DNA of 64,000 nt from Selaginella tamariscina. Its lineage: Eukaryota; Streptophyta; Lycopodiopsida; Selaginellales; Selaginellaceae. Positions 4,101 through 34,300 of this stretch are shown here, piece by piece. The stretch is from NCBI GenBank assembly GCA_003024785.1, contig PUQB01000161.1, forward strand, positions 312,223 to 376,222, in the 5' to 3' direction. The notes beneath the pieces are model-generated. The model saw only the letters and a list, made by a program, of their open reading frames with translations, had not been told where the DNA came from and searched no databases. Both the position numbers and the translations under genes were made by a program. Numbering within the stretch: position 1 is the stretch's first letter; every line of letters begins with the position of its first letter.

Positions 4101-6600
4101 CTAAAGTTGACAATTAGGTTGTAATGCATTTAATAAACCTCATGCTTATTATAATATAAATAAAGTCTTTTACACCATCTTAGTTTCATGAACATACACA
4201 TATAATGTAATTGAATTTAAAATAAATGGTATATAATCTGAATTAGACAAATATTTTTTTCTTTTTAAAGTATCAAACCTTTCACTAAAGGCAATGAAAA
4301 TGCACTACAAAAACATAATTCACAACACTTTATTTCCCACTATATAAATAACAAATGGAAGCCCTTAACCTTGGCCAATATACACATCATTATTATTAAA
4401 AATATCAACATATGCATAAAAACCATTAGATGTGTTAAGCCATTATTAACTTATAATCTTAGGTATTAAAACCCATTAGTTATACTTAAACATTGACCAA
4501 TGCATTAAAAATCTATTAGATGTGTATAAGTTGTTAGATGTGCTTAACATTTATAAAAAGTAATTATTTAGTCTTTTAAGTTAAACTAATTAATTAATTA
4601 ATGTAGCAAGATATATATTTCGTTTCTTAATAACTTTGGTAACTTAAAGGTTAAAAGATGTATTTAATAAAATATTTTATATCATATGAGGAAAATATAT
4701 TAATAAAAATTTGGGCCATCGATTCAAGTATTCTATGTTTGTTTGTACATAAACTATTCTACATACGTTTATATATATAACATGTGAATAAATATACATT
4801 GAACTTTAAAATATAAAATATAATTTATGTTTAATATATATTGGAATAATATAGCAATATTATATAAGTTAAATAATACTAAAATAAAAAGAACAAAGTG
4901 AGAACATTGTAACTTAATAAGCAAATATAAAAAATATTTAAACAATTATGTATATATCATATGTCAAAATCAAATTTAATCATAGATATATTTAAAATAT
5001 AATAGTTAAAGAATTTAAAACTATGCAAATTTTTTTATAGTTATTAAATGAAAGATTGTTTAAATGTAGCACCTTTGCCTGGCAAAATCCATGACCACAA
5101 TGTAGAAATTGCGACCACCCCTTTTTACATAGATCCACAACCACACAACTTGCATGGGCTTGAGTATAAAGCTTGAGTAGGGCCAAAACCCTCAAAGCAA
5201 TTAACACACTTTTCTCCACCATTTGTATCGTTTCTTTTAATTCAATTCAATTCAATTCAATCTCAGTTTTCACAATAACTCTTATCCGTCGACAAGTGTA
5301 GTTATTAACATGGGAAAACTTTCCTATGCGTAGAAATCATTATTCACAGCGTAGGAAAAGCTTTCTAAGTTAAAGTAAAGAGGATTTTGATCTAGTATAG
5401 CTTTATAAATATAAGGTCAAGGATAGGATTTTGCTTTGGCCATTGCCATATATAGCACTTATAAGGTAGTTTTCTCATAGGATAAGCATATATTCACTAT
5501 ATATATCATATATATATATAATTATGCACTTACATTACTAAATGATTACAAGAGATAGCAAGTGAAAAGACTTACTTCTTCTTAAAGATTCTCTCTCTCC
5601 CATGCATTCCTCTCCATAACCTTCATAGCCTTCATAGTCTCTCTCTCCCCCTTCTTGCCCTAACTTGCTATAACCGAATCCTGTCCTTATCGAACCGTCA
5701 TAACCATCTACTCCTCCTGCGTAGGATATTTCCTACTATCGTAGGATTTTTTTGTACCTGTAGGATTTTTTTCTACCGCACCTTTCTTACGAGCTTTCCT
5801 CCACCGTAGGAAAGTTCGATGTATGTAATTCCTACATGCTCTGTTTTTGATCCCTAATAGTAGTCTATTCGTCTCAGCAGATGAAGTATTCCTGCTCGGA
5901 TTCCAATTCCTAACAGAACTCATATTCACATAAGAAAGAATGTTAAAAACCCCTTTTGCATTATTATTCCCAAGTTTCATATCATTAAACTGAGTAGCCC
6001 TTTCTTAAAATCTTTAAAAGCATTTGAATTATAAAATAATATGAACATGTGCACACATGTTCATAGAAAAAAGGTATTTTACCATGTCATCTAATGTGAA
6101 TAATTTTATACCTTAACTTATATTGAAAGTAGCTAAAGATTCTTTTCACAGAGTGGACATAAAAGTTTTAAAATAGTTAAATATGCAACACCTTTTCTCA
6201 TTTTAAGGACTCACACTGCTTTTCTTCCTCCTTAGAATGAGGGGTAGTTTGAACCATGGCACATACCTCAAGGGCAATGTAGAAAACTTAGATTTGACAC
6301 ATTTTGTTCATTCTCTTATTATAACCCATTCACAAACTTTCATAAATATCTCATTCTATTAAGTACATCTAAAGAAAAGTTACACAATAACTTGAAAAAG
6401 AGTTAAGTTATCATATAAAGTAATTTAACTAATAATAAATTCATCATGTTAAGGATAACAACTGGATTAAGGATTCATTAAATAGTTAAATAATTAAACC
6501 TACCAATACTAGGTATCTGTTATTTTGTGAGTCTGTTTAACACCCATCAGTGGTCATCCTTGATCCAATAGTTTTAATAGTGCTACATAAGTTTAAGAAT
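1134..6600. other. AT-rich intergenic spacer, no supported gene
   Basis: I see no convincing exon series in this 5.5-kb stretch. It is very AT-rich, with scattered short open frames lacking recognisable domains. A CT-rich tract near 5580-5700 (repeated tctctctctccc) resembles a plant 5' leader but has no coding frame behind it. Around 6410-6750, motifs of the type aggttaagxataa recur as loose repeats next to the left end of the candidate transposon. Confidence 0.5.
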
Positions 6601-6764
6601 TAGAATAACCTTTGGACATCATTTAAAATGAATGCACATGGCATAGATGCTTAGAGATAAACTCACTAAGTTAAGATAATAATTAGGTTAAGTGTAAACT
6701 CACTAGGTTAAGGATAACAACGTCATTAAATAGTTAAGCCTAACTTAAGGTAGATTAGAATACC

Positions 6765-6795
6765 ATATATGCACGTTGTAACTAAAGTGGGCATG
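6765..6795 (+). repeat. Left inverted terminal-type repeat (31 bp)
   Basis: The sequence starts atatatgcacgttgtaac and ends gtgggcatg. Its complement recurs at 21726-21756 with two mismatches. Further inward, at about 6930-6970, GGAATATTCC and TTAGAATATTC motifs resemble the inner side of the right end. The outward border is not sharply defined. Confidence 0.6.
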
Positions 6796-7049
6796 ATACG
6801 TGAAAATGGGAATATAAAATAAATTACTAATTAATACTTAAGTTTTAATTATAATTAATTATTTAATTAATATGTAATTAAGCCTTAAATATTAATTAAT
6901 TAATTAATTAATCCTTCAATAACCTTACTTAGTAAGGAATATTCCTAAAATATCTTAGAATATTCATATTATTCAAAATAGTTTATAATGAAAATACTAT
7001 CAAACATAATTAGAAATGAAATCATTTTCTTATCAACATGTTAATTTTT

Positions 7050-8215
7050 TTATAAATACTTTCTTCCTATCATACAAAGAAATCTTTTCATTTTGTCTAA
7101 ATCATCACTCTCCGGATTAATCAAATCATTTTGGTCAATATCTTGATGTTGTTGCCACCACTTAACACTCTCACGAATGCAATTGGGAGTTGCCATCCTT
7201 GTTAATACATAAGATGTGATAAGAGAAGGTCTGCATAAAGGCTCATCTAAAAACTGACGTTCCTTAAGAATAATATTATAAAGCGCCCGGTTGCTATCCT
7301 TCATTTTATAAAATTCAATATCACGAGAAAGAAAAGCTTCAGGAAATGTATGATACGGTGGATACTGCTCACAAAAATTTTCGAGATTCTTCTTTCTGAG
7401 GCACGTATCCAAGTAGTTCACTAGCTCATCCATGATATCGGTATCAGAATATGGATCGAAAGTGATTGGATGAATACAAGCAATGTTTTGGTTGAGCATA
7501 GCCTTCTGAGGAGAGTCGTCTACTACTAATCTGTGCGTTCTTCATTATCCTTAAGCGACTGATCTCCCCATGAGTCCCAATTATTCTTTCATTCTTGAAG
7601 AAGTATGGCTTGCTTTCCTTTCTTATATTGTGAAATTCGAGAGGTTTATAACATTCGCTGGTCAAAAATCCAATCTTTACGAATCACCTCTTCTGCAACA
7701 CTACAATGTTTCTTAAGTAAATTCAACAGCGGTGTTAAGTTATGAATCTGCATGCATGACCAAATCCCCACAAGCGCACCCATCTCCTTAAGCTTTTGAA
7801 AGAGACGATCCAACCCTGGACGAAAAATAATATCATATCGAAATTTACCATGACAAGGAATGAAATCTCCTTGTTTGATTTCTTTTTTCTATCCTCGGGC
7901 CTTTGTCGATGAAGCAGAACACCATTGACATCCAACAACACAATATGGCCATGAGTAACATGAGATAGCGTTGCCTCTTGAATACTTTGCAAATCACTTG
8001 TTTGCTCCCTTTCACATTTATCCGTTGCCACTATCTCGTTGCCTATCCCTTCATCATTTAATTGTACATCATCCTTACAAGATTCAGATATTGCATGCGC
8101 TGAAGAAATTGATTTCGGAATGAAGCCAATAAAAATGATGATGAAGTGGCCCCCATGGTAACGATGTTTTGAGCTGCATTATTATCCATTTCCTGCATGA
8201 ACTCTGTCATTCTGA
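7050..8215 (-). pseudogene. FCP1/NIF-type HAD phosphatase-like protein, frames broken
   Basis: Reading leftward there is an N-terminal extension, then HAD motif I in the form HIVLLDVNGVLLHR (7950-7900). RPGLDRLFQKLKEMG with GIWSCM follows at 7830-7750, then a region with DWIFDQR (about 7680), then VVDDSPQKAMLNQN (7525-7485), which is HAD motif IV, and a C-terminal part to a stop at 7050. This order is that of FCP1/NLI-interacting-factor-like phosphatases of the HAD superfamily. The second aspartate of the usual DxDxT motif is Asn here (DVN), as I recall from other plant members, so phosphatase activity is doubtful. At least three frame changes separate the blocks. It lies immediately downstream of the methyltransferase-like gene on the same strand, as possible transposon cargo. 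Confidence 0.65.
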
Positions 8216-8482
8216 CATGTGGCACAAGAAATTGTCGCCAAACCCCTCTCTTACCTCATGGCAATGCTGAAAATCCATGTTCTCAATTATTTCATTACAT
8301 CTGCAAAATGATAATTAGCTGACCTTAAAATTATCAAGGTATATTATTTACCTTGTTAATGTGTGACCCATGTTTGAACTAAAAGCTTCATTAATCCTTG
8401 AGAATTTATTTTCTGTACAAATATAAAAGAAATATACAAAAATGCCTTATGTTACACTCATTTACAACTATTCATCACTCTA

Positions 8483-11400
8483 TCAATTCATTATCAATTC
8501 TTCTTCGCTATTACCTTCTGAGTGAGGCGAAGAAGGTCTAAGCCGCTTGTGAGATGGTTCAAGATCTTCTGCATCTTCTATTGATGTTTCCATGGGTCCT
8601 GGAGTGTGCGAATGTTCTGTACTCCTCGAGATAACTTCCGGTCTAATATCTGATTGAAGTTCGTTCTCAGACTCCGAGATTGAACCAGATTCACCTTCAG
8701 AGCTATCGCACTTATCTGGAGGGAACTTTCTCAAATACGCCTTTATGGAATCGTTGGGGTACTCAGTTGAGACCCAATCTATCCACTTGTTCAGGTCCTC
8801 AACCATGGTCTTATCCTTTTCAACGGCAAACACACATGTATGCCGAAGGTAACACTCCTTCAAGACGGACCCCCTAGTGCAGTAGTCAAAAACCCACGCA
8901 TCACTGTGAGGACCCCTGATCAAGTTGACGATGCTCCGTGCCGCTTGACTTGTAATGTTTGGATAACGTACATTGCCGAATACGTCACTCATACCTATCG
9001 GTGTATCGGATGGAGGTTCAGGGCCGTTGGAGTGCAAACAGATGCCTGGCCAGTCATTTGGAAGCTTGAAATTGTTTGGCGCATTCCTAACAACCAAGTG
9101 AACAACGGTATCAATGCACTTGGGATTAGCATCGTTCATATAAAATCCTGTCCAACGATGTCTATTCTTCTTGGCGAAGGCGAAGGCAAAAGTATCGGTG
9201 ACATGAGCAAGAATCAAGAAATAAATACCTGAAAAAGTAGGTATCAGTGAAGAGCGCAAGCATGAATTCAATAATAAATACCTTCTATGTATATGCTTGC
9301 ACGGCTAAGTTTCTCCACCAGATCCTCTAGTGCCCTATCTGTCGAAAGATTTTTTGACACCCGCCGATCCATCACGAACAATTGAAACGGTTTCCTACAA
9401 GCAGTGATGTTACCCCATAAAGTCTCCGAATCTAACAACAAACATCTGTAGGGCTTGTCGTGATTCGTAGCATCCTCCTTTATAAGGTTCAATTCGGTTC
9501 TCCGCTGCTGAAGGACTGCCATAAGAGAAGGCGTCATCCCAATGTTCTCCTTTTTGGCGTTGGCGTGCAATAGATTCTTGCCTAGATCTTCCGATTGGTT
9601 CACCCATTCGACAAGCATATCATCGTTCGTCACATGCAAATATTTGCTGACCTCTTCATATGTTGAAGTCGAGGTCCAACCCAGTTTGTGGCAGTGTATT
9701 CCCAACCACTCCTTGAAATGCCTGACCGTCTTCAACTCCATTGCCTTGAGATGAAAAGGAGAGGTTGGGCTGCTGTTATTAATTTGTAGTTTGCCATCGA
9801 TCACCAAATCAGCCAAGACTTCCATCTCCTCCATCGTTGTTCCATTTAAAGGCTTCAACCATGTGAGCTTGAAATCGTTGTCTACATCCTTTGTAGATTG
9901 AACAGACTTAGCCTTCGGCGTCTTACTGGGTTTCTTTGCAGACTTTTCTGAGGGCTCCCCTTCACTTGTCTGCTTCTTCTTCAGTGTTCCTTTTGAAAAG
10001 GATTCCATAATCCCCAACCATTTGGCAAAGATCCTATCTTCGGGGCAAGAAATCAACATCATCAGAAAGATGTTTCCTTCCCGCCCACCTGGGCAAAATC
10101 AACTGCTGCAATTTCTTCAACTCTCTGAGGAAAAAGACAGATTAATATACCGGCGAGATAAATCCCGCCCAAACAATTTGCTTACCCGGTATTCCGCAGA
10201 TTGTGTATTCCCTGCGGTAGCTCTTTGTGGTCGCTGAAGAGATTCCCACACGGCTCGCGTGTGTTTAAACTTCTCCCATATTTTGCTGTTGTAGTGGTTG
10301 GTGTCGGCAGCGTCCCATTCCGCCGATAACTTATGGTACTGCTCGATTGTGAGATTCGGCTTAGCTAAAAACGCCGATCTTTTTGTCAGCTTCTCACGGG
10401 TATGCTCGGAAAGTTTTGTTGCCATCGTTCCTTTGTTGTGTTCCGAGAAGTCGTTGGGCTGCCGTTATTGTGTGCTGGCCACTAATGATGTAGTACTTGA
10501 TAGATTTTTATTCTCCGTCTGAATCTTCATGAGTTGTTCTGGTGTTGTGATCCAGACTTTGTCAGCGCCCTTCCTTCTTTCATAGTATGGACACAAAACA
10601 TTATGTGGAACGGTATAAGAATTGTCGTCCTTCATCTTCTCCATGAGCTCAGCTACACGTTCCTGGTTGAGTGGCCTGTAATTGAAGTTTGGGTTGACGC
10701 TGCAATATTTAACCCTACAAGGATAAATCTTATCATCCAACATCATTTCCTTGTGACTTATTGCAGCATGAGATGCCACAGGTGCAGCTGACAAAACGAT
10801 TGATGATTTTCTTTTGCGATCCGAATCAACATGTGTGATCCCCGACTGCAGCTGTTCTAGTGTTCTCGGTACACTCTTCCAGCTCCCAAGCTTCCTAAGC
10901 AAATTGAACGTGATCTGTAGAGAACCTGAGACCGAGCCACCTCTCAATCTCCATTATGATGTCGCTGTGTTCTTCTTCAATGTGAAGAGGGAAGATTGCT
11001 CCACTTGCTGATTTTCTGTATTGTGAAGCAATATCTCCTGACAATACACCTACTCGATGAGTCTGAAGATTTTCGAAGTAGACATCCAGATGGATCCCCT
11101 CCATAGATGGGCTTTCGTTGAGTTGAAGAAGAACTCCAAGGTCAACATCATTAGTGAACACGTGAACGTCATTATCCACAAGTCGACAAAACCACCCGAA
11201 ATTAATGTTGTAACTGACGACCTCTGGATCCGAGAACGTGACATTGGATGGAACAAGGCATATCTGTCGAGCATCGTCCAATCTGGGTTCGCAGCCTGCT
11301 TTCGGGTGCTTGACTAGCGAATCTACTTTCCATTGTTTTGCTTGTCCATGAGATGTGACAGAGGTTAATTTGACAGCAGCCATGGTTGCTCCAATGCGCT

Positions 11401-11579
11401 TCCCATTTATCTTAAAATATGGCCAAGTTGATTCCAGAATCCCCCTGCCCATCTCTTCTCCTGCTCTTGTCTTTAATGTCACCTCAATTCCACATCTGAA
11501 TACAAAAATGATTAGTTCAAGTATCCGAGTATAACAGATTTTATTTTAATTCTTACCCAGAATTTGACGACGACTCCAT
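8483..11579 (-). pseudogene. ParB-like plus amino-methyltransferase-like protein, several frame breaks
   Basis: A 23-bp first coding exon (11579-11557, MESSSNSG) joins in phase to an exon starting 11495 (GT/AG borders). Domains in order: an N-terminal domain (about 11480-10900) resembling the start of the transposase-like protein at 18.1 kb; a ParB/sulfiredoxin-like region with RPLNQERVAELMEKM (10690-10630) and SGQHTITAAQRL (about 10490-10450), matching the ParB GQH..AA..L signature; a linker with WDAADTNHYNSKIWEKF; an intron near 10190-10130; a Lys-rich tract; then a methyltransferase-like region with YRCLLLDS and, near the C-terminus, WVFDYCTRGSVLKECYLRH..VFAVEKD (8915-8820), resembling motif I (FxGxG) of permuted N4/N6 amino-methyltransferases. 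The acidic tail ends at 8483. I could not find a clean DPPY/W motif. Homology crosses frames about five times, so this is a decayed copy or has indel errors. Confidence 0.6.
10150..10175. repeat. Isolated copy of the palindromic repeat inside a methyltransferase-gene intron
   Basis: The stretch ccggcgagataaatcccgcc is a variant of the array palindrome with the ATAAAT core also seen in array A (for example 12418 and 13244). It falls between a plausible donor (ccGGTAAGC on the minus strand) and acceptor (TTTTTCCTCAG), far from the main arrays. This links the gene to the palindrome family. Confidence 0.7.
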
Positions 11580-11721
11580 ACTAATGACTCGATCTCCTTG
11601 TTTGATCAAATCGTCCTTCTGCAAAATAATACACTATAAATATAAATTATATAAAAACGCACACACACTTGTATAAACCCGAATATACAAAAATAATACA
11701 CAGAGAGAAGTAGACGTAATT

Positions 11722-11808
11722 AACTGTCCGAAGCTCACATTTGTGTTAGTGCAAAAGAAAGATAACATTTCGTTTTAGAACCACCACAAATGTGAGCTCT
11801 GGACAGTT
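11722..11808. other. Strong hairpin upstream of the leftward gene
   Basis: Bases 11722-11745 and 11785-11808 are inverted copies (about 22 of 24 pair; core cacaaatgtgagct), with a loop of about 39 bases. The hairpin sits about 145 bp upstream of the start codon at 11579, in the likely promoter or 5' leader of the leftward gene. Function unknown: it could be a regulatory stem, a small-RNA precursor or a fragment of an inverted-repeat element. Confidence 0.7.
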
Positions 11809-11920
11809 TTACATAGATTCCTAGCTTTTACTCGAAATATTATGATAAGATGATAAAAGTAAATAAAATGAGATATGCAACTTATATATACTAATACACA
11901 TATATATTCACATGGAAGGT

Positions 11921-13480
11921 GCGGCGGGATTAATCTCGCCACCCCTTCAATGCCTCCTGAAAGAGTGGGCGGGATTAATCTCGCCACCTTTCTGGAGGCC
12001 TTGAACGGGAGTGCGGAATTAATCTTGCCACCCTTCTCGGTCTCAGAGAGAACTGGGCAGGATTTATTTCTCACACCCCTTCAGTGACTCCAGAAAGGGG
12101 CGGGATTAATCTCGCCCACCATGTAAGGATGGTTAAATGAATTTCCCACCCTTCCCAATTCTCTCCATTGGTATGTTGAAAACCTTCTACGTCTCAGACA
12201 GAAACGTTTGGGATTGGTCCGACTCACCAATGGAGAAAAAAAGGGTGGCGGGATTCATTCTCCAACAGGCATTGAAGACTCGGCGGGATTAATCCCGCCG
12301 CCCAGGGCCTTCACTCGGTCCCTATGCGGCGGGATTAATCCCGCCGGACGCCAATTCCCTGCGCGGAATCGGGCGGGATTAATCCCGCCGCCTAGGCACT
12401 TCAGGCAGGCCAATGGCGGCGGGATAAATCCCGCCCGATTCCGCGCAGGGATTGGCGTCGCGGCGGGATTAATCCCGCCTCCCAGGCCCTTCACTCGGGC
12501 CTTAGTCGGCGGGATTAATCCCGCCGAACGCCAATGCCCTGTGCGAAATCTTGCGGGATTAATCCCGCCGCCTAGGCCCTTCAGGCAGGCCAATGGCGGC
12601 GGGATAAATCCCGCCCGATTCCGCGCAGGGCATGCGTACGCGGCGGGATTAATCCCGCCACCATGTAAGGGATGGTGAAATTAATCCCACCACCCTTCTC
12701 AGTTCCCTCCATTGGTATTTTGTAAACCTTCTCCGTCTCAGACAGAGTTAGTCGGGATTGATTCAACATACCAATGGAGGAAAAAGAAGGTGGGATTAAT
12801 CCCCACCGGGTAATGAAGGTTCGGAGAGACTAATCCCGCCGCCCTCTCGTAAATCATGCGCTCACACATATATATTGGCTGCGGCATTTTGAACAGGGAT
12901 GGGTGGGGGCGGGATTAATCCCGCCGCTTATATCCTGCGGAAGTGCCTGAGCGGCGGGATTAATCCCGCCGCCCTCCGCGAAGGGCATGAGCGTGGGGCC
13001 GGATTAATCCCGCCGTTCATGTCCTGCGTGAATTCCCTGGGCGGCGGGATTAATCCCGCCGCCTTACGCGCAGGACATGTCATGCAGGCTCTTCGGTTAG
13101 CCTTCCGTGCAGGATCTTTCATGCAGGCTCTTCGGTTAGCCTCATGAGCGGCGGGATTAATCCCGCCGCCCATCCCTGTAAATGCCCTGCGCGGAATCCG
13201 GCGGGATTAATCCCGCCCATTAGGGCCTTCACACAGGCCATTGCCGGCGAGATAAATCCCGCCGCATTCCGCGCAGGGCATGGGTGAGCGGCGGGATTAA
13301 TCCCGCCGCCGAGGCCCCTCACGCAGGCCATGGGCGGCGGGATTAATCCCGCCGCTCTTCGGTTTGTCGTAGAGCGGCGGGATTAATCCCGCCGCCCATA
13401 GCCTGCGTGAAGGGCCTCGGCGGCGGGATTAATCCCGCCGCCATGGCCCCAACCATATAGCGGCGGGATTAATCCCGCCG
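11921..13480. repeat. Palindrome array A: 18-bp GGCGGGATTAATCCCGCC repeated about every 45 bp
   Basis: About 16 perfect copies of the self-complementary 18-mer and about ten variants occur here, e.g. at 12282, 12328, 12372, 12462, 12508, 12642, 12953, 13042, 13149, 13289, 13335 and 13461. Start-to-start spacing is mostly 44-46 bp. Many copies extend to 20-24 bp (CGG...CCG flanks). Variants change one half only (TCTCGCC) or the core (ATAAAT). Spacers are GC-rich, recur (ccaggcccttcac; ccctgcgcggaatc) and often appear as inverted pairs. Two related 150-bp blocks (12110-12260, 12655-12800) interrupt the series and hold longer hairpins around ccattggtat. The array lies upstream of the leftward gene, in the centre of the candidate transposon. 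Confidence 0.95.
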
Positions 13481-13489
13481 CTCGAGGGC

Positions 13490-14228
13490 TTAGCGTGTGT
13501 GCGAGAGATAAAATTAATAAATAAAAAAATTATACAGATAAACACACACATATATATATGTGTGTGTGTATATATATATATATATGTATGTATGTATGTA
13601 TGTATAGGAGTGTACGTGTGTGTGCAAGAGATAGATAAATAAATAAAATTATACAGTACTGGTACACATAATATATGTGTGTACATAGGTATATATATGT
13701 GTGTATATGTATATCGTGTGTATGCGTGTGAGCGAAACAAATAAAATCATACAGATAAACAAACACACACACACATATATATACACAGGAGTGTGCGTGT
13801 GTGTGCGAAAGATAAAACTAATAAATAAATAAAATTATACAGATAAACACACACATATATATGTGTGTATATAGATATATAATCCATAGAGAAAGAGAGA
13901 GAGTCTGTGAATATATAAGCATATATATAAACTAGTGTTGTATGTATGTATATATGTATATAGGTATATATATGTGTATATGTATATTGTGTGTATGCGT
14001 GTGTGAGCGAAACAAATAAAATCATACAGATAAACAAACACACACACACACACATATACATACACAGGAGTGTGCGTGTGTGTGCGAGAGATAAAACTAA
14101 TAAATAAATAAAATTATACAGATAAACACACACATATATATATGTGTGTATATAGATATATAACCCATATGAATATATAAGCATATATATAAACTAGTGT
14201 TGTATACTATTTGTTAATATGCATTGAT

Positions 14229-14282
<54 letters not shown>

Positions 14283-14547
14283 GCAGTGTGCGTGTGTGTG
14301 GGAGAGATAGATCAATAAAAAAAAATTTACAGATACTGGTACACATAATATATGTATGTATATATGTATATAGGTATATATATATATGTGTATATGTATA
14401 TCGTGTGTATGCGTGTGTGAGCGAAACAAATAAAATCATACAGATAAACAAACACACACCCACACACACATATACATACACAGGAGTGTGCGTGTGTGTG
14501 CGAGAGATAAAACTAATAAATAAATTTATACGCACACTCCTATACAT

Positions 14548-14580
<33 letters not shown>

Positions 14581-14630
14581 CACGATCTCACCTGTGTGCA
14601 CAGCCGCCGCCGCCGATTTCACAGCCGCCG
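13490..14630. repeat. TG/TA microsatellite tract with four tandemly related blocks
   Basis: The tract is dominated by (tg)n, (ta)n, (tgta)n and (ca)n runs. A block containing gagcgaaacaaataaaatca, followed by cacacaca and then gtgtgcgtgtgtgtgcgagag, recurs at about 13730, 14005 and 14420, so the region grew by segmental duplication of units of several hundred bp. Long open frames here on both strands are products of dinucleotide repeats, not genes. Confidence 0.85.
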
Positions 14631-14971
14631 CCTCTTGAAACCCTAAGAATATACCTAAACCCTAAAGGAATTAAATATATATATTAACCCTAATAGAATA
14701 TTCCTTCTGAGAATATACTTAAACCCTAAAAAAATAAAATATAGATTCGCCCTAAACGAATATTCTTTCATTATATTATTAGCGCGTGCGTGTGCGTGGG
14801 TGTATCACATACACCCCAAAAATATAAATCATGCAGGGATTTAACATGTGTGTGTCCATGAGAGTGTTAAAGTTTCATGTGTATCAATACATACATACAC
14901 ATTGCATATATTAATACACATAATATATACATACACACGTGTATACACACAGACATACATACATATTACAT

Positions 14972-15541
14972 GGGTTTAGGGTTTAGGGTTTTGGATTTAG
15001 GATGGATCATGCATGGTGTGTATGTATGAGAGAAGAGAGAGTGTTGAAAAATTATTTTTGTACACATTGCATATATTAGTACACATATATACTTACACAT
15101 ATTATACACAGATATACATACATAGTATATGAGAGAAGAGAGACAGTACATATTATGGATCATGCATGGTGTGTATTATACACACAGACATACATACATA
15201 TTAGTACATAATATTAGAGAGACCGAGTACATATTATAGATCATGCATGGTGTGTATGTTTGAGAGAAGAGAGACAGTACATATTAACATGGATCATGCA
15301 TGGTGTGTATGAGAGACAGAAAGTACACATATATACATACAGAGTACACATATATACATGCACACGTGTATACACACAGACATACATACATATTACATGA
15401 GTAAATTCATTGTGTTACATATTAGGGTTTAGGGTTTAGGGTTTAGGATGGATCATGCATGGTGTGAAGAGAGAGTGTTGAAAAATTATTTTTGTACACA
15501 CATGTATACACAGGGTTTAGGGTTTAGGGTTTAGGGTTTGC
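14972..15541. repeat. Interstitial telomere-type TTTAGGG repeats
   Basis: Short runs of the plant telomere unit occur at 14972-14990, 15422-15447 and 15511-15540 (three to four units each), with near-matches at 14640-14750 (aaaccctaa). They sit among duplicated blocks containing ggatcatgcatggtgtgtatg (15001, 15157, 15238, 15290, 15449). All three runs have the same orientation. Confidence 0.85.
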
Positions 15542-16760
15542 TCCCAACAAGCTTAATATAAATATTACACATGTAAATTCAATGTGTTACATACACACAG
15601 ATTGAGTACATATATCATACATGCGTTGAACATGATGTTTTCAATAAAGAAGCAACATATTTCTTCAGTTTGGTTTAGGGTTGTGCATGTGTGTGCATAT
15701 GTGTTTTTGTAAGTTCTTGTAATGCGTGTGTAAATTTATGATTGTGTTTATATATGTGTGCAAAACAAACATCGAATAATTGAAAATAATATTAATAAAC
15801 ACACTATGAACATATTTTAAATTATACATAATAATATATGATTTTATCTAATATATAGCCATATATAGTTTTAATAATATATATTAATTTAATATTGATA
15901 AAAAGGTTTAACATTGAAATATTCTTGAAATAATAAGAAATTAATTGAGAAAATCCCATTAATATATACAAATGTAAATTAAGTACTCAAATAATCTAAA
16001 TTAATTATCATAATCATGTTTAATATTGGAATATTCTTGGAATAATAAGAAAATAATAAAGAATATCCCATTAATATAAAGAAGATTAATTACTCAAGTA
16101 ATTAAGGAAATGATATTAATATATATATTATTAAAACTATATATGACTATATATTAGATAAAATGATGTATTATTATGTATAATTTAAAATATGTTCATA
16201 GTGTGTATTAATTTAATATTGATAATAAGGTTTAACACATGAATATTCTTGAAATAATAACAAATTAATTGAGAAAATCCCATTAATATATACAAATGTA
16301 GAATAATTACTGCAATAATTAAGAACAAGACTAATTTAATTATGATAATCAGGTTTAATATTAGAATATTCTTCAAATATTAATAAAATATTAAAGAATA
16401 TCCCATTGATACTAGGAAATGAAAACTAAATACTCGAGTAATTAAGAAAATAATAATAATAAACAGACTATGAATATATTTTAAATGATACATAATAAAT
16501 ATCAATTTATTTATTGTATAAGTATATATTTATATATATATATATAATAAATATACTTGAATACTAAGAATGTAGAATATAGTCTAAAATTTCGTAATAT
16601 TAAACAGCTTGAATCACTTGAATAACATTAAATGCAATTTTAAAATACTCATTGGAACTGGAGAGTATATATGTCAGAGTGTCGGATATTTGTGTCAACT
16701 CATCTTAAATTTTATTTTCTGTTCTTTTTAAAAATTTGAATTTCTGACATATGTATTGTC
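15542..16760. other. AT-rich spacer with internal duplication
   Basis: No coding signal. Segments around 15880-16090 and 16205-16400 are related copies sharing gaaataataaxaaattaattgag and aaagaatatcccattgat-like strings. Part of 15780-15870 is inverted relative to 16120-16205 (for example catattttaaattatacata and its complement). Confidence 0.6.
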
Positions 16761-16776
16761 GGTCTGACATGTAAAT

Positions 16777-16962
16777 TTGAAAATGCATTTAATTTCCCAC
16801 TCAAATTCAGATCTGGTTCTTTCTCCGGCAAGGGTTTCTTCATTTCTGTATTTTTCACTCTTTAGATCTTCTTTTTTTCTTCATAGTGATCATCTCAGGA
16901 GCGAGATTAAATTGGGTGCTATTCTTTATAGGAAAGCACGGCGCCTTCAGTGCTGTTTACAA
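16777..16962 (+). other. Probable 5' leader exon of the transposase-like gene
   Basis: A mixed-composition stretch with plant-leader character (tttctccggcaagggtttcttc) ends at a consensus donor TTTACAA|GTAAGTAT at 16962. The next good acceptor on this strand before coding sequence is TTTATGTGCAG at 18131, giving an intron of about 1.17 kb that would contain palindrome array B. The exon could be untranslated or encode a short leader. The transcription start is not visible. Confidence 0.4.
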
Positions 16963-17126
16963 GTAAGTATTATAAACAAATTTAAAAATACTTATAAAGA
17001 TTCACTCTCTTACATTCTCTCTTAAAATTACAATTTAGGGGTTTAGGAATGCATTAGGATTATAATATATTCCGTTAGGGATTTATCCCGTTTAAATATC
17101 CTTTTAACTTAATATTCTAGGTTAAC

Positions 17127-17984
17127 CGGGCGGCGGGATTAATCCGGCCATTTCTTTTTCGCCTCTTCGAAGAGGTGGCGGGATTAATCCCGCCACCATC
17201 TCTCGGGCAATGCTTCTCCGCCACTGAAAAAGAGTGGCGGGATTAATCCCGCGATAACCTTCTCAACTGATGAAGAGTTACCAGAATTTATTAGAAAGAG
17301 TTGTCGGCGGGATTAATCCCGCCAACCATTTTAGGAGGCAGGGAAGGGGTGGCGGGATTAATCTCGCCACCACATCCCTGTTTTAAGGATTTGGGGACAG
17401 GATTTATCCCGAGATCTCTTTGAAATCATAGTTTTGGAGAGAGTTATGTGCGGGTTTAATCCCGCCACCCATTCCCCGTCGTAAGAATTGTGGGCGGGAT
17501 TAATCCCGCCTTGGACTCCCTCCGACAAGGAAGAGCCGGCGGGATTAATCCCGCCGCCTCTTCCTCCTCGGGGGCCGGCGGGATTAATCCCGCCGACTCT
17601 CTCCGGCGAGGATGAGTCGGCGGGATTAATCCCGCCGGACTCCCTTCCTCGTCGGAGAGAGTCGGCGGGATTAATCCCGCCGGACTCCCCCGAGGAGGAG
17701 AGGCGCGGGATTAATCCCGCCGGCTCTTCCTTGTCGGAGGGAGTCCAAGGCGGGATTAATCCCGCCGACCGTTCCTCGTCGAGAGAGTCGGCGGGATTAA
17801 TCCCGCCGGACTCCCCCCGAGGAGGAAGAGGCGGCGGGATTAATCCCGCCGGCTCTTCCTTGTCGGAGGGAGTCCAAGGCGGGATTAATCCCGCCGACTC
17901 TCTCCGAAGGGGTTGAGTCGGCGGCGGGATTAATCCCGCCGACCGTTCCGTCGGAGGGATTCGTGGGCGGGATTAATCCCGCCC
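17127..17984. repeat. Palindrome array B: same 18-bp palindrome, GC-rich mirrored spacers
   Basis: About 13 perfect copies and five to six variants of GGCGGGATTAATCCCGCC occur, e.g. at 17176, 17305, 17492, 17537, 17576, 17620, 17663, 17750, 17789, 17833, 17877, 17924 and 17966. From 17492 onward the spacing is 39-47 bp. Spacers are built from the same words on either strand: ggctcttccttgtcggaggg (from 17722 and 17850) is the complement of ccctccgacaaggaagagcc (17518). The interval 17510-17575 is therefore largely the inverted complement of about 17811-17880. The array falls inside the proposed first intron of the transposase-like gene. Confidence 0.95.
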
Positions 17985-18131
17985 ATCAGTTGTATTAATC
18001 AAACATGAGATATTATCTCTAAACATAATTATGTATTATTGCATATGCATATTATTAAGTAACCGTAATTCAGATTTCTTAGAAATATTGCATAAACAGA
18101 TATCATAAATAATACAATTATTTATGTGCAG

Positions 18132-21100
18132 GACAATATGTTTAATACTGGAGATAAAGTATGTCTTCTTCGGAACAACGAGATAGTTGGCACTGGAACT
18201 GTGGAAGTTCGAGATAATAATGCATCATGTCACAATATTGCCCAAGGATCTTGTGTGTACGTATGGGTGAACACCATTTACAAGCATGTTGAGGTTCTGG
18301 GAATGGAATTTGAGGAGGGTTCTCCTATTGTGGAATTTGGATGAAGTCAAGGCTGACACAGAATATGCAGAGTCACAAACAAATAGTAGCACGAGTTTAC
18401 CAGATGATGGCTTGCCTGCTGTGATGGATGAGGTGATTCTCTTTCTTCGTGAGATTGAAGTCGGAAGAGGCATCATCACAGCTATAAATCCAATGGAAGC
18501 AGTGTCAGAAGAGAAACTAGGGTCCGACTTCGTGGGTGTAGTTGTGACAGAGGTTTCACCTAATGGCACATTGTATCCTGGATCCCTCGTGAGGTGGCGA
18601 ACATCTGAATTAAGACGGCAAGATGGTTCAACATATTCTGGGTTGGATTTCAATAATAACAACCCGGAAGAACAACTCATATTTGAAGAGGTTCCTTGCA
18701 TTGGTCCTATTGTAAGAAAAAGGCGATTCATGGGTTGTAGATCTTCCCCTGCAAGTTTCAGCAAGAGGGTAAAGATGGATCCTACATCTTCCGAAAGTGT
18801 TACGAGCATTTCCACGATTGACTGTTGCAAGAAGAAGTGTTGTCAGATGGCAGACCGGAATGAAATTACCCAATGTAGACATGTCTTTCGTATGCTCACC
18901 CAAAAGCAAAGGCATGAGTTTGTATATGCTGCACTAACTGGGTGTATTGATGGAATGGCCTCGGACACAGGTTATCAGAGTACATCCATGGTATTTAATA
19001 AGGTGGCCATCTGCTTCAAAGCTTGGTACAGTATATACGGGATCCCAAAGACCACGTTCTACCGTCGGAGGGATGAGTGGCTAGATGGAGCGCGAACCTC
19101 AGTTCATGGGAACACTCGCTTGGTCAAAACCCGCTCTCACATCATGGCAGCCATAGAGATACTCAAGGCTTTTGTGGAAGCAAATGCAGACAGGATGCCT
19201 CACAAATGCCGAACCACAAATGCAGGGGTCAGGGAAAATCTCAAGGTTTTACCTTCAATCTACACTCAATTGAAACTGTGTGAACATGTGAACAAGTGCC
19301 TCAGTTTGATGGGGCTCCAAGCAATCTGCACTGGTACCTTCAACAACATATGGAATACTCATTTTAAGGATGTGGAGATTGCAAAACACTCTAGCTTTTC
19401 TAAGTGTGACACTTGTACATCATTGAAGGCTGCAGAGGCTTGTGCAAAAACCTTGGTGGAGATCACTACCATTCAAAGGAAGATGGAGGCCCACATGATT
19501 GCACAACAAACTTGCCGGTCTCAGTACTATGCACACCGCATGCTTTCTGTGTCACGCCCATCAGAGTACCTGTGCTTGATCCATGACAAGATGGATCATT
19601 CAAAGACCAGCATTCCAAAGCTCTTTGCAACACCAAAGTGCCTTGGAAATGTCATGAAACTTCCGATTTCATTGACATGTGTGCTAACACATGGACACGG
19701 TTGTGAGTCATATGGACACTTTTCACTTCCACATTGGTCTAGCGACTCCAATTTCACTATTGGGTCGTTAGCCATGTGTTTCAGAAACCTTGAAGCCCAC
19801 TCACAGACAAGTCCTATCAGTGATCTCAAAGTGAAGAAACAACACCTTCAACCTTTACATAATGCTCTCATGAACACGTCTGCACTTGAGGCTACTTGGG
19901 AATATGAGAGGCATTGTCAACAGCCTGCACAAAAATAGATGGCCCTGTTGAGAGTTCAGGTTCAGTGGAGGGATCTAGCTCAAATAGTGTACATGTGTCC
20001 TCAACATCAAATAAGCTTCCTCGTCATTTGCTTTTACAGATGGATAATTGTGCAGGCGAGAACAAAAATAGGTAAATCATTTTACTTAAGGGTTTCTCAA
20101 GCTCATACTTACTTTTATTTTCTAGATATGTGCTAGCATACTTGTCAATGCTTGTTGCCAAAGGTGTGTTTGAAACAATCACGCTCAGTTTCCTTATGGT
20201 TGGTCACACTCATGAAGATATTGATGCGTTCTTCAGCAAGGTCTCCAACTCTACAAAAAGGACAAGTGCACTTACCTTACCGCATATGATGAATCTTTTT
20301 GAAAATTGCATCTCCAAAAAAAGTTGTGCTTTGCTTGTGACTGAGGTGCCAGACTTCAAAAAATTTCTCAAGGAGTATATAAAAGAAGGGAGTGATTCTT
20401 TAGTTGGTCACCTTGTGCCGCTACAATTCTTTTTCTCCATACGAGATGGTATACCTATTATGCAGTACAAGTTACGGCCATCAGAGCAGGAGTGGTTACC
20501 GATTAATGCTCTTCAAAAGTGGAGAGGATGGAAAGCCACTTCTCCCAGAAGGACAACCAGACCCTATTCCATTGAGTGCCCAGCTCAAGGAACAAGAGGT
20601 TATTATTGATGGCATCAAAAAATATGTGGCATGGGTTCAAAAATCGATGCCAAAGAATTCTGATAAGGCAACTGGTTACTCAGAACTATATAAGCATGTG
20701 GTCAACTATTGGGAGACTGTTGTTCGAGAGTTGGAAGGGCCTACTGTCACAAGTACAGAATTGCAACACCCTTTCTGGCCTAAAACAAGGTGGCGAGAGG
20801 AGATTGAAATGACATCACTGAGCATAGACGACATAGAAGCCAGTAGTGATGTGGAAGTGCAAACCCCACACTTTGTTGGACAAAGGAACCAAAAACCTAA
20901 AGCATACTTTGATTGCTGCAAGGATCTTCAAAAACTAATGATGGTTCTCATTACTCCAGATGCGTCATATAATCAGCCTATTTGGATGGGTCAAATTATC
21001 GACACACCTGAAGTAATCACAAAAAATAGTATTGTTAAGGTTGCATGGTTCAAACCACAAAAAAGGCGACACGAGAAGGAGAGCGAAAGATATAATGGAT

Positions 21101-21246
21101 GCCTAGAGAAAACATGGTCTCCCAATCAAAAAGACCCAGCATGTTTTATAAATGTTAAATCCATTCGATATGGGTGGATGTCAAGAAGCGTTGATAAAGT
21201 CACGATTAACAAAACTGCAAGGGAATGTATGTTTTCTGAAGCTTAA
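18132..21246 (+). pseudogene. Transposase-like protein with GHTHEDID motif (DUF7869-type), frames broken
   Basis: Following acceptor GTGCAG (18131), the start codon at 18138 opens MFNTGDKVCLLRNNEIVGTG. A one-base break near 18342 leads to a second N-terminal module (VILFLREIEVGRGI, 18430-18480). Then come a basic region, a Cys-rich region (SKCDTCTSLKAAEAC, 19400-19445), an LIHDKMDHSKTSIPKL block (19578-19625) and DNCAGENKNR|YVLAYL across a 54-bp intron (20072-20125). SFLMVGHTHEDIDAFFSKV follows (20190-20247). The three Asp/His-rich blocks look like an RNase-H-fold DDE-type catalytic core; I recall the family as DUF7869, common in mosses and ferns. A C-terminal domain (IVKVAWFKPQKRRHE) ends at 21246. 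Frame changes at about 18342, 19890 and 20517 indicate decay or indel errors. Catalytic roles are inferred. Confidence 0.65.
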
Positions 21247-21725
21247 AGCAATTACAAAATTATAAAATATCATATATTTAATATTCATAATTATTATAAA
21301 CTCTTTAATAATAGTACCAAATTGTATACTTAACTATATAAATTTAAAAAATGATATGGAAGATTGACTATATTATTATAGGATTTTATATATATATTAT
21401 TACTACTACAAATTTTTAATTAATAATGTTATATTTAAATATTAATATTTTAATAACAACATCAATATTATATAATGTACCTCTTATGCTCTTCCTTAAT
21501 TGTTATATTAGGCAATATATTATATAATTTAATACATTCTACTTTTATAATGTTATTAATTTTTGTTCAATGAATGCTATAATTTATTAAAGGGTAGAAT
21601 ACAAAATAGAATATTCTAAAGAATATTCTCTTTTCAAACATATATTCTAAAGAATATTCCTTTAATATTAGAAAATGCTAATTAAATAGCTAAAATTGCT
21701 AATTATTAGGAAATGGGACTATAGC
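21247..21725. other. 3' flank of the transposase-like gene to the right inverted repeat
   Basis: AT-rich non-coding DNA. It includes paired motifs aaagaatattctc and aaagaatattcct (about 21615-21660), similar to the region just inside the left inverted repeat. No gene seen. Confidence 0.5.
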
Positions 21726-21756
21726 CATGCCCATTTTAGTTACAACTTGCATATAT
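21726..21756 (-). repeat. Right inverted terminal-type repeat (31 bp)
   Basis: This is the partner of 6765-6795 on the opposite strand, starting catgcccattttagttac on the plus strand. It lies about 480 bp beyond the stop codon of the transposase-like gene, where a terminal repeat would be expected. Inner flanking motifs (agaatattcc, 21600-21665) echo those of the left end. Confidence 0.6.
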
Positions 21757-22049
21757 TAAGAATAATAATTAGGTTAAGAGTTATTAAATAGTTAATTCAA
21801 AGTAAATTCATTAGGTTAAAGATAATAAATGAGTTAAGGCTTCAGTTCATTAAATTAAGAATAATAATTAGGTTAAGAATTTATTAATTAATAAATTATT
21901 ATTGAATAATTAATCTCACCAATGGTGGACATGTGAATTAATTAATAAATTCTTAACCTAGTTGTACACAGTCCACCATGATCATTACTATGTACCTTAT
22001 TTTATGGACTTATATATTAATATTTATTGCCCATTAATGAAAGTGATTG
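21757..22049. repeat. ggttaag-type repeats flanking the candidate transposon on its right
   Basis: Motif ttaagaataataattaggttaag occurs at 21757 and again near 21855. A close relative lies at 6671 on the left flank in the same orientation. A small hairpin (ccaatggtggac / gtccaccatg) spans 21917-21980. No coding signal. Confidence 0.55.
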
Positions 22050-24159
22050 TTAAACAGAAAAGCCCACCTTTTCCTATTAAACCAGATACATTCACATAGT
22101 AGTTAGGAAAGGTCAGACGTTTTTTATTTGTCTACTCTCTAATATATTAAATAACTTTCTTATAATGCCAAAATGACTAGTCTTCGAAGTTAAGAATAAG
22201 AAATAGATTTTGGATATTACTTGTTAAACATATCTATTAGAAGTACATATAAATTATACACAAGAGATCTTATAATATGCACCTTCTTTCCTAGTATAAA
22301 TACAAGAGAACAAGCATGGAGAGTCTTCTCTCTTCTCCCTTACCCTCTCTCCCTTCCTTTACCACGTTATCATTTTCCTTCCAAATCTTTCTTTTCCTCT
22401 CCTTTCTCATAAGGATTCCTATCTGCCTTAACTACCTTCCTATCTTGCCAATGTTATCATTTTCCTTCTAAATCTTCCTTCTCCTTTCTCCTTTACTTTA
22501 AGTAAGGAATTTCCTTCCTAGGAGCTTCTTTTCAAACTTTATACAAACCTTCCTACCCTTATTCTTTACATACTAGGATGTTCTTTGCTCTTATCTTTCT
22601 ACATTAACACTGTCCCCACCTTATTTGTTGCTAGGTCCTCACAACAACTATCCTACTCCTTCATTTGGATGTTGATTTTCATAGTACTGTAGATTCTCTC
22701 ATTTGTACATCAAAATTTGTTTTTCCCTCCTTCAGTTATTAATTATAAATTAATATATAGAGTTGTAACACTTGATTTTCTTCATGTTATTTCTTAAGTT
22801 TCTTCTTCTTATTGAATAGTTTTTTCTTTATGTTGCTAAATACTTTTCACTTCATGTTGTTGAATGGTGTTCTTTTCATATTCTTTAGGCTTATTCTTTG
22901 TGCCTATAGTTACTTGCTCTAAAGGATTTGTAGTATACACATATGTATATTCTGCATATTATTCTTGAAAATCAATCTCATATGGGATTCCTTTATAAAA
23001 AAATTCCTGTAGTCCAAGCCTATCTTCTTCATATTAATTAATACCGATCATTTCAACTTTGATAAGATCTTCCTTCTCTTTTATATTGTTTATCATTTCT
23101 TTCTTCATAAGGTTTATCATTCTATTGTCCATTATATAGACCATTTATTCCTCCATAACACCTTTCATCTTTGTTTTCATAGGGAGTGTCATTTCTTCTC
23201 CTATAATATTTATCGTTTACATTCTAATAAGGAACATCATTCCTCCTACTATATGATTTACCATTTATATTTTCATAAGGAACATCATTATTATTTTTAT
23301 GGTTCATATTGAAAGGTAACCTTTTAAGAGGTAGATGATCATTATTACTTCTCTTTCTTTATCCGAGTCACATTTTAATTTTAAAAATGTTACAATCTCG
23401 GCCACATGTTCTTTCTTCCACATGTTTAACATGTCACATCCCTCCATTGTATAACTAGGATTTATTACATTTAATGCACCATACCTTTGCCTTTTACTCC
23501 TCCTTAATTATCATTTTCTTTAAGGTTTTCATAAATTAAGCCAATGTTTTCTTATCCATTGGATATTTATGAACCTTACTATGTTAGTTTTTGCTTTCTC
23601 ATCATCAGAGAATTCCTCTTGGCGTGAACAAGATGACGAAACTCATGGCCCTACCATAATATAAGTCAAAAGCATAATCACTGTTAAAGGTAAAAGGTCA
23701 GAAGTATTATTGTGGAGAGAATAAGGGTATGAAGGTTCGCATATAGTTTGGAAAGAAGATTGCATATGAAGAAAATACTTAATGAGAAGAAAAAGAGAGA
23801 AAAAAGAAAAGAAAGACTCAAAAGGAAAATAATGACGTGGGCAAGAGAGGAAGGTAGTTAGGGCAAAATGGGAAGGGAGAGGGCAAGGGAAAGGAGATAG
23901 GAATCTCCATACTTGTTCTCTTATATTTTTTTTAGAAAAAAGGTGCATATTATAAGATCTCTTGTATATAATTTATATGTGTTTCCAATTAACAAGGCAA
24001 TAATTAAAATCCAATTTTATTTTTAACTTCGAAGATTAATCATTGTGGCATTATAAGGAAATTATTTAATATATTGGAGAGTAGACAATTAAGAAACGTT
24101 TAGCCTTTCTTAACTACTATGTAAAAGTTGAATATGAAAAGGTGGGCTTTTCTATTTAA
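22050..24159. mobile_element. Foldback-type element with about 350-bp inverted arms
   Basis: The arm from 22050 (ttaaacagaaaagcccacct) to about 22395 is repeated inverted from about 23810 to 24159 (aggtgggcttttctatttaa). Paired landmarks include ataatatgcaccttc with aaggtgcatattat, gagaacaagcatggaga with ctccatacttgttctc, and catagtagttaggaaagg with cctttcttaactactatg. The 1.4-kb centre is non-coding, with repeated strings such as taaggaacatcat and gtttatcatt. No clear target duplication was found. This is the structure of a foldback or long-TIR MITE-like element. Confidence 0.75.
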
Positions 24160-24747
24160 GAATTGGCGACCATATAAGGATTTCACCATTGCATTATTAG
24201 AATTCATTGAATGAAATGTTAAAATGATTAATTGATTGGAATTTTAATAATAAAAATGACTTAAAAAGTGTAGAGCTGAATGTGTACATGGTAAAAGAAT
24301 GAATGGAACCTTGAAGAAATTATTGTCATGATCCGACATTAGTCAATAAAAGAAATCAAAGACATGCCTAGAGAGTGGCAACCCAATAACAACTTGAATA
24401 TGACAAAAAATAAACATTAGTATTTCTGGGAAAATAATAAAAGATATCGTAGAAACAATATAGAAATCGAAGGTTGATATAAAGAATTAGAGACAATATC
24501 GAACGGTTAATCTGTGAAAGAAAAAAAAGAAAATTCAAAAATATCGAGAATACAAGGAGGATCTCTTGAGACTCCCTAAGATGAAGGGCAAAAGGTAGAA
24601 GAGGAAATACACCAAAAGAAAAAATTATTTTAAATATGGCACTTTTCTAGGAATGTTTAAGGATACAATGATATAGGATACATTCTCTATAGGAAAGAAA
24701 GAGATTCCAAAAAACATTTACAACAATTTAAAAAGATAATTAAAGTA

Positions 24748-33321: not shown

Positions 33322-34298
33322 TGTCATAGTTTTTACTATGACTCGACCCTTTACTTTGGGGTTTGACTGTTGTTAGCTACTGGATTATGTGACGAACCCT
33401 AGATGTAGAAGAAACAGGCCCGCATAGTGCACTTGGGTATCTAGTGATGGTCCGGCCGGGTGTCGTTAGGTATTTAAGAAACTCTAGGCGAAGCTAGCAC
33501 TTCCATTTAGAGAACCCTCCCCCATTTTGACGTTCCAGGTTAGGGTTCTTCGCTGATTATAGCTTGTCAAAATAAGGGTTAGGGACACCCCTAGGGTTGA
33601 CCTAACCCTAGGGTTGCCCTAACCCCACGTCCTAAACCCCCCCCTAGGGGTTAGGTTTAGGATTAGGTTAGGACAACCATTTTCTCTAAGGGCTGGCATT
33701 TCCGTGCCAGCCCACTTACTCATTTAGGTAAACAGGGGGGGGGGGGTCCGTCACATAAATAAGGTAGAGTATATGTAGTGAGGCTTCCTGGGTTCAAAAG
33801 AGAGCTCGTTAACCTCCTACCGGTGCAAGCTAAGCTTGTGTCGTCAAGGTGCAACCCTCTGTTGTGCCGCCCAAACTTCCACACGACAGGGGTACAACCC
33901 ACCCTAGGGTTAGACTATCCTTATCGTTGGCAGGATCTTGCCTTTGAGACAAGGGCACGTCACTTCCAAGGAGTTAGCCAGATTCCTTGGTCCGAAAACC
34001 TGCTCGCAAGCTCAAAGGTATTGCCCGAGTTCACGTTCCGCAGAACTAGTGGTTGAGGCCTTGCTCCGGCCGCCTCAACCACGCCAAGCTAGGAACAACA
34101 CCTATAACTCGGCCAGTCGTGCATCCTGATTCACAAGGTGAGTCTCGTTCGTGGACTTGGTCAGTTAGGGTTTAAGTTCCTAAGGGTTGGGTTCCTAATA
34201 CGGGTTACTTTACCAGATTCCGTGGGGTTTCCAGAGAGGGGATTCCAGGGTTGGCACCTGGCAAGCCGCCTTTGTGGCACCAGGTAAAAACTCTGACA
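33322..34298 (+). repeat. 5' LTR
   Basis: It begins TGTCATAGTTTTTACTATGA and ends AACTCTGACA, 977 bp. A short inverted repeat (tcatagtttttactatga) lies at the very start. The interior holds poly-C/G runs (cccccccctagggg; gggggggggg at 33735) and many ccctagggtt units. Confidence 0.92.
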
Positions 34299-34300
34299 AT

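Follow-up and report, generated by a model that had tools for sequence, protein, structure and literature searches.

Arrays of an 18-bp palindrome within a high-copy DUF7869 transposon of Selaginella tamariscina as putative control regions

Among plant transposons, the systems closest to the one described here are the CACTA (En/Spm) elements, such as Tgmt* of soybean, which carry dense short repeats, both direct and inverted, that are able to form stem-loops and are bound by an element-encoded regulator, with a motif that varies between subfamilies (PMC2613891, PMC8195511). In this study a 64-kb stretch of the Selaginella tamariscina genome (contig PUQB01000161.1, positions 312,223 to 376,222; hereafter the window) was analysed, in which two dense arrays, A and B, of the perfect 18-bp palindrome GGCGGGATTAATCCCGCC lie inside a DNA transposon with two divergent genes, an unnamed left gene and a right gene encoding a transposase of the DUF7869 family (PF25273). 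The explanation we favour, with moderate confidence and on the basis of sequence comparisons, is that the arrays act in cis to control this high-copy transposon, for which they would serve as symmetric docking sites for a dimer encoded by the element itself.

The likeness to CACTA elements is one of general design: a large plant element combines a transposase, DNA-binding functions (putative in the present case) and dense short repeats, and the role of the arrays appears to resemble that of the TnpA sites. Nevertheless this is not a CACTA element, because its termini, its transposase and the placement of its repeats differ. Instead of CACTA terminal inverted repeats it ends in ATGCAMGTTGTAACTAAARTGGGCATG (ATGCA...), its right gene encodes a DUF7869 protein and has no tnp2/TnpD-type domain above cut-off, and its arrays, unlike the subterminal repeats of CACTA elements, are internal, approximately 5.2 kb from the left end and 3.8 kb from the right, at the starts of the divergent genes. 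The repeat unit, a perfect 18-bp palindrome, is a further difference. Another comparison is offered by transposons that, according to a review, amplified E2F motifs in Brassicaceae and likewise multiplied a short transcription-factor-like site; these are 10-bp motifs, found primarily in miniature inverted-repeat transposable element copies, whereas here dense 18-bp palindrome arrays belong to a large two-gene element (PMC12595863). DUF7869 proteins of Physcomitrium patens and Ceratodon purpureus belong to the same transposase family and share the same core motifs. Open-access literature searches for DUF7869, the palindrome letters and the GHTHED motif found no paper, and among open-access titles and abstract starts no description was found of DUF7869 palindromic arrays, termini or second gene, or of palindromic arrays of this kind in plant or moss transposons.

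With up to three mismatches allowed, the palindrome was found 45 times in the window, against a mean of 0.04 and a maximum of 1 in 100 shuffles; 26 of these matches fall in array A, 18 in array B and one is a stray at 10152. A reading of the window made earlier from its letters alone (the sequence-only reading) had counted about 30 perfect, self-complementary palindromes and some 15 variants in blocks of 1.5 and 0.85 kb, which agrees well with the 29 exact copies, every one of them self-complementary, the 15 near copies in the arrays and the measured lengths of 1.56 kb (A) and 0.85 kb (B). Together the arrays hold 44 copies at up to three mismatches and 50 at up to six. The steady step of 44–46 bp described in the same reading was recovered for 27 of 48 site-to-site steps, with regular 44/46 alternation in 12282–12642 (nine sites, standard deviation 1.0); in the dense part of array B the step is 43 ± 2.1 bp. 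Its further argument, that this step equals about four helical turns and would place bound dimers on the same side of the DNA, falls: with 10.5 bp to the turn, 45 bp makes 4.3 turns, and site positions showed no 10.5-bp phase in either of the two arrays tested (A, p = 0.72; B, p = 0.55). Helical phasing of the sites was rejected. A period of 11.25 does fit the stretch 12282–12642 (p 0.000), but this value is just 45/4; array B is in phase at 11.0 with p = 0.043, seven periods having been tried on each of five sets.

In the 300.7-Mb genome the exact palindrome occurs at 27,128 places and its reversed control at none. At least 17 clusters were found among the matches listed for one contig (C1), 12 of which form six pairs separated by 3.0–3.8 kb, a distance that resembles the arrangement of arrays A and B in the window. 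Seven of the 17 listed clusters were sampled and all seven arrays lie within the element, six clearly and the seventh (L035) in a decayed copy where pieces of the left gene remain at 76–81%; array A was located beside the left gene in L003–L007, L031 and L034, and in L008–L010, L032 and L033 the transposase gene adjoins array B. When copies were instead chosen by their transposase, array B was present in 10 of 10 and array A in its usual place in six of 10, the other four being rearranged, shortened or interrupted by runs of N. The link to the same two genes that the sequence-only reading had asked to be checked is supported by both samples, and the outcome that it named as contradicting it, a satellite scattered without link to genes, gives way to a palindrome that is part of one transposon family. 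A genome-wide satellite, considered in view of the copy number, was dropped because all seven fetched arrays are in the element; an ordinary satellite would be arranged head-to-tail and unlinked to genes, whereas the spacer pairs are 48 direct and 50 inverted and the seven arrays all belong to one element. No pair of exact palindromes 18–34 bp apart was found in the prokaryote and viral contigs scanned, and a single exact 18-mer in one viral contig (L001) was taken as a chance match.

The element was delimited by comparing the window with ten fetched copies, chosen by transposase match. On the left, where the end of the element is visible in six copies, similarity starts at 6764–6769; on the right, where it is visible in nine, similarity stops at 21752–21763. 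The two genes and the two arrays all lie between the halves of an inverted repeat (6765–6795 / 21726–21756, 29 of 31 bp). The exact terminal repeat was found 2,259 times in the genome (1,161 forward, 1,098 reverse; reversed control 0). Among the matches listed, at least 14 inward-facing neighbouring pairs, counted by hand, are 13.9–15.0 kb apart, the remaining distances being 10.1, 11.8, 18.1 kb and more. Since 78 scored transposase matches, among 7,362 first-look candidates, are 97–100% identical and exact terminal repeats are so numerous, the family shows signs of a recent burst and the element appears to be both abundant and young. Matching 4-bp flanks were present in two of five copies with both ends, namely the window (ATAT) and C658 (GTTT/GTTT), and not in C885, C875 or C202. 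GTTAAG-type direct repeats stand directly beyond both ends (6425–6720 and 21753–21897), as if the element had inserted into a pre-existing repeat; they are placed outside it because the similarity of the copies stops at the terminal repeats.

Within the arrays, the sites and the DNA between them have evolved differently. Of 741 spacer pairs in the window 99 are detectably related, and these differ at 19.1% of positions (474/2488), compared with 3.4% (60/1782) for their flanking half-palindromes. Comparing the window with six more diverged C1 loci (L003, L010, L031–L034), array B palindromes differ by 5.4% (51/951) and spacers by 25.1% (356/1421), with 9.2% for the B leader and 3.5% for the right gene, while in array A the corresponding values are 2.1% for palindromes, 8.1% for spacers and 1.6% for the leader. 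In six young copies the values for palindromes and spacers are 2.7% and 3.7% in array A and 1.3% and 5.2% in array B, with 0.2–0.5% for coding sequence; against this trend, array B of C638 has equal values (4.9% and 5.0%). The observed/expected ratio of CpG is 0.98 and 1.07 in palindromes and is depleted to 0.60 and 0.67 in spacers. The earlier statement that the core is conserved while spacers drift is thus confirmed, and spacers as conserved as the palindrome, which would have spoken against it, are not seen overall in the window or the six C1 loci. Of the two targets of selection then proposed, a binding site fits best, whereas spacers as selected hairpins were rejected, their mean folding z being −0.02 over 39 spacers. 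A simple score of spacer palindromicity was positive (Stouffer 5.1), but, the spacers being interrelated, this does not count as independent evidence.

A palindrome is a direct and an inverted repeat at once, and exchange between two copies can therefore delete, duplicate or invert the DNA between them. The related spacers of the window are oriented in 48 direct and 50 inverted pairs with one tie, and those of ten other copies in 270 direct and 288 inverted pairs (pairs within 2 kb, at a threshold slightly different from that used for the window). In none of four blocks did the spacer layout differ from random flips (fraction reaching the observed value 0.07–0.66), and a selected alternation of orientation was discarded, whereas permuting the spacer order lowered the inverted self-match of whole array B (0/400 reach the observed value; for the remaining blocks the fractions are 0.06, 0.14 and 0.51). 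The number of B sites ranges from 12 to 20 across ten copies whose transposase region is 99.8–99.9% identical, that of A sites from 29 to 33 across the six copies with A in place, and interior B units reappear in reversed orientation. Such scrambling would be explained by exchange between palindromes.

The only relative with DNA context, L002 (CADCWO010000071.1), carries a palindrome of its own. This 4.3-kb contig, filed in a cyanobacterial metagenome bin, is related to moss proteins and is probably a eukaryotic contaminant; its transposase is a single uninterrupted frame of 944 amino acids (DUF7869, expectation value (E) 1.6e-42). The palindrome TTTAGCTCGASTCGAGCTAAA is present in its flanks in seven copies with up to five mismatches (0.02 expected from 60 shuffles). 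Three of these lie upstream and four downstream of the transposase open reading frame (ORF), which itself has none at this threshold and one at eight mismatches. A motif-free test of the flanks recovered the same palindrome, the largest family of 21-mers having seven members against one or two in 15 shuffles. Neither the window palindrome (up to four mismatches) in L002 nor the L002 motif (up to five) in the window was found.

Turning to the genes, the DUF7869 match of the right gene (20076–20609) has an E of 2.1e-27 (96.4 bits, curated cut-off 26), and nothing else scored above cut-off in the Pfam scan, Transposase_23 remaining below it at E 0.28, or 0.037 on a hand-joined piece. Relatives numbered seven in one search (P0001–P0007) and 167 in another, the named ones among the 120 matches listed being mosses; viral contigs searched with P0003 and alignment A2 yielded none. 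The transposase is probably of the DDE type. A first structure model (P0001) was too poor to be used (mean predicted local distance difference test score 48), and the fold comparison of a second covers mainly residues 261–619 and excludes no family. No relatives of the left protein were found in the protein database at E 0.001, a ParB-like stretch (10397–10953) and a methyltransferase-like motif (8486–9304, both on the minus strand) noticed by eye were borne out by none of the Pfam, NCBIfam, PHROGs and PDB sequence searches, and two PDB matches were to designed proteins and were ignored. In a BLASTP comparison within a 15-protein set its N-terminus matched P0006 (E 0.004) and the window transposase (E 0.007), which weakly supports a shared N-terminal domain. 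Ratios of nonsynonymous to synonymous substitution rates were 0.17–0.40 for the right gene against four diverged matches (L008 and L010 being overlapping pieces of one copy), 0.36–0.53 for the N-terminal exon of the left gene (C462b, C658, L003, L031) and 0.35 and 0.19 for its middle exon (C462b, L035), indicating purifying selection on both genes.

Each of the two genes has one array shortly before its coding start, and splice-site scoring (donor threshold 3.3) predicts that both lie within leader introns of the divergent pair. For the left gene the donor at 14591 is the better of two above threshold on the minus strand of 11300–16000, and the acceptor at 11619 is one of seven listed, a slightly stronger one being at 14726; for the transposase gene the donor at 16963 is the best of three above threshold on the plus strand of 15500–18350, and the acceptor at 18131, best of three listed, ends six bases before the first ATG (18138). 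Since the two genes are divergent and have predicted leader introns, the region between the arrays is presumed to be a bidirectional promoter region. Several telomere-like TTTAGGG-type repeats are located in it at 14650–15540.

According to the explanation that we favour, the two-fold symmetry of each 18-mer would make it a site for a dimer of a DNA-binding protein that the element itself encodes, the candidates being the transposase, through a helix-turn-helix or its N-terminal domain, and the left-hand protein. With many such sites the element would be able to respond to its own protein by switching both genes, and the sites might also aid transpososome assembly, while recombination or template switching between sites would duplicate, delete or invert spacers and leave the sites undamaged. 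Because each site is its own reverse complement, arrays could vary in length and order around an unchanging site. A number of observations weigh against this explanation. Searches of Pfam, NCBIfam, PHROGs and PDB sequences recognised no DNA-binding domain in the left protein, its N-terminus had no match to the L002 relative at E 1, and the profile of the N-terminal domain matched one solved structure only, at E 1.2. The leader introns are predicted from splice weights, near-identical gene copies show few changes, often nonsynonymous only, and comparison with relatives covers a single one with DNA, whose sites stand on both sides of its transposase. Palindromes of array A differ more than its spacers in two of six young copies (C202, C615), and in array B of C202 palindromes differ at 2/197 positions and spacers at 0/311. 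Palindrome identity is moreover partly circular, part of the contrast being built in because resemblance to the palindrome was the criterion for choosing sites and because aligners anchor there, and homogenisation could mimic selection; the bias weighs less on the CpG contrast and on the high divergence of the spacers. More tentatively, and as something we would regard as possible rather than probable, each DUF7869 lineage may keep a palindromic 'address' of its own in many copies around the transposase gene, co-evolving with its own DNA-binding domain, in a self-scrambling, site-preserving regulatory array within leader introns of two divergent genes; with a self-complementary address, such control arrays could invert and reshuffle without losing function.

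Three other explanations have to be weighed. If the arrays are transcribed within leader introns, hairpin-rich or double-stranded RNA might affect splicing, feed small RNAs or escape silencing, which we consider unlikely. The RNA of both arrays does fold more strongly than six mononucleotide shuffles each (A, −1072 against −604 to −620 kcal/mol; B, −653 against −322 to −337 kcal/mol), the part of array B at 17450–17939 shows an 84.6% match to its reverse complement, the inverted self-match of the whole of array B exceeds that of permuted spacer orders and both arrays are inside predicted introns. Strong folding is, however, expected of any GC-rich palindrome array, while the spacers themselves fold no better than shuffles, the inverted layout does not stand out from random spacer flips in any of four blocks and in L002 sites are found downstream as well as upstream of the transposase ORF.

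A still less probable alternative is that the palindromes are sites for a host transcription factor, each with two E2F-like half-sites (GGCGGGA, TCCCGCC) that would tie the element to S phase. The half-sites contain GGCGGGA, which we take to be the core of E2F sites, but GGCGGGAT presumably deviates from the plant E2F consensus in having T in place of A. The amplified motifs of Brassicaceae provide a precedent; the L002 palindrome, though, is unrelated, and E2F therefore cannot explain both elements. Finally, the arrays may have no function and be a recombination-driven internal satellite that rides on the spread of the element and is homogenised by gene conversion. The varying length and order of arrays between near-identical copies and the half-and-half orientation of spacers, indistinguishable from random flips, would suit this account, which we nevertheless regard as very improbable: homogenisation should reach the spacers too, yet these outpace the leaders (25% against 9% in B, 8% against 1.6% in A), the arrays stay in the same two places, CpGs are retained mainly in the palindrome and L002 has an independent palindrome.

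These results give an anatomy, comprising ends, two genes, putative control arrays and indications that it was recently very active, to a transposase family known here only as a domain of unknown function. They also provide a natural experiment on how binding-site arrays may evolve under a symmetric site, with sites frozen and spacers free to flip, and if each subfamily does have its own palindrome, protein–DNA co-evolution in transposons could be tested by swapping domains and palindromes. The coordinates of the features are collected in Table 1.

Table 1. Features of the DUF7869 transposon and its palindromic arrays, in window coordinates
Feature	Position	Strand	Remarks
DNA transposon, whole	6769..21752	.	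about 15.0 kb; from copy comparison and inverted termini
Left terminal inverted repeat	6769..6795	+	27 bp, ATGCACGTTGTAACTAAAGTGGGCATG
Right terminal inverted repeat	21726..21752	-	27 bp, ATGCAAGTTGTAACTAAAATGGGCATG on the minus strand
Possible target-site duplication	6765..6768 and 21753..21756	.	ATAT; matching 4 bp at both ends
Phosphatase fragment, NLI-interacting-factor-like	7649..8178	-	PF03031; inside the element, behind the left gene
Left gene, protein unnamed	8486..11579	-	multi-exon; ORFs within 8486-11545, predicted ATG 11579
Predicted leader intron, left gene	11619..14591	-	donor 14591, acceptor 11619; contains array A
Array A	11923..13479	.	31 sites (up to 6 mismatches), 26 (up to 3), 16 exact
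Region between arrays	13480..17131	.	AT-rich; microsatellites, TTTAGGG-type repeats
Predicted leader intron, transposase gene	16963..18131	+	donor 16963, acceptor 18131; contains array B
Extra site outside array B	17075		6 mismatches
Array B	17132..17983	.	19 sites (up to 6 mismatches), 18 (up to 3), 13 exact
Right gene, DUF7869 transposase	18138..21246	+	spread over several frames, with tentative exon borders and possible lesions

The phosphatase-like fragment, perhaps a captured host gene, matched PF03031 with an E of 1.8e-6 on a hand-joined piece, and on the unjoined ORF 7649–7888 with an E of 0.00056 and 20.1 bits, just below the curated cut-off of 21.8. Elsewhere in the window, a long inverted repeat (22046–22565 / 23718–24163, 77–81%), about 2.1 kb across, is possibly a fold-back or non-autonomous element, and direct repeats at 33322–34299 and 39688–40661, 98.5% identical and with a gag ORF (PF03732) between them, probably delimit a Ty3-type long terminal repeat retrotransposon.

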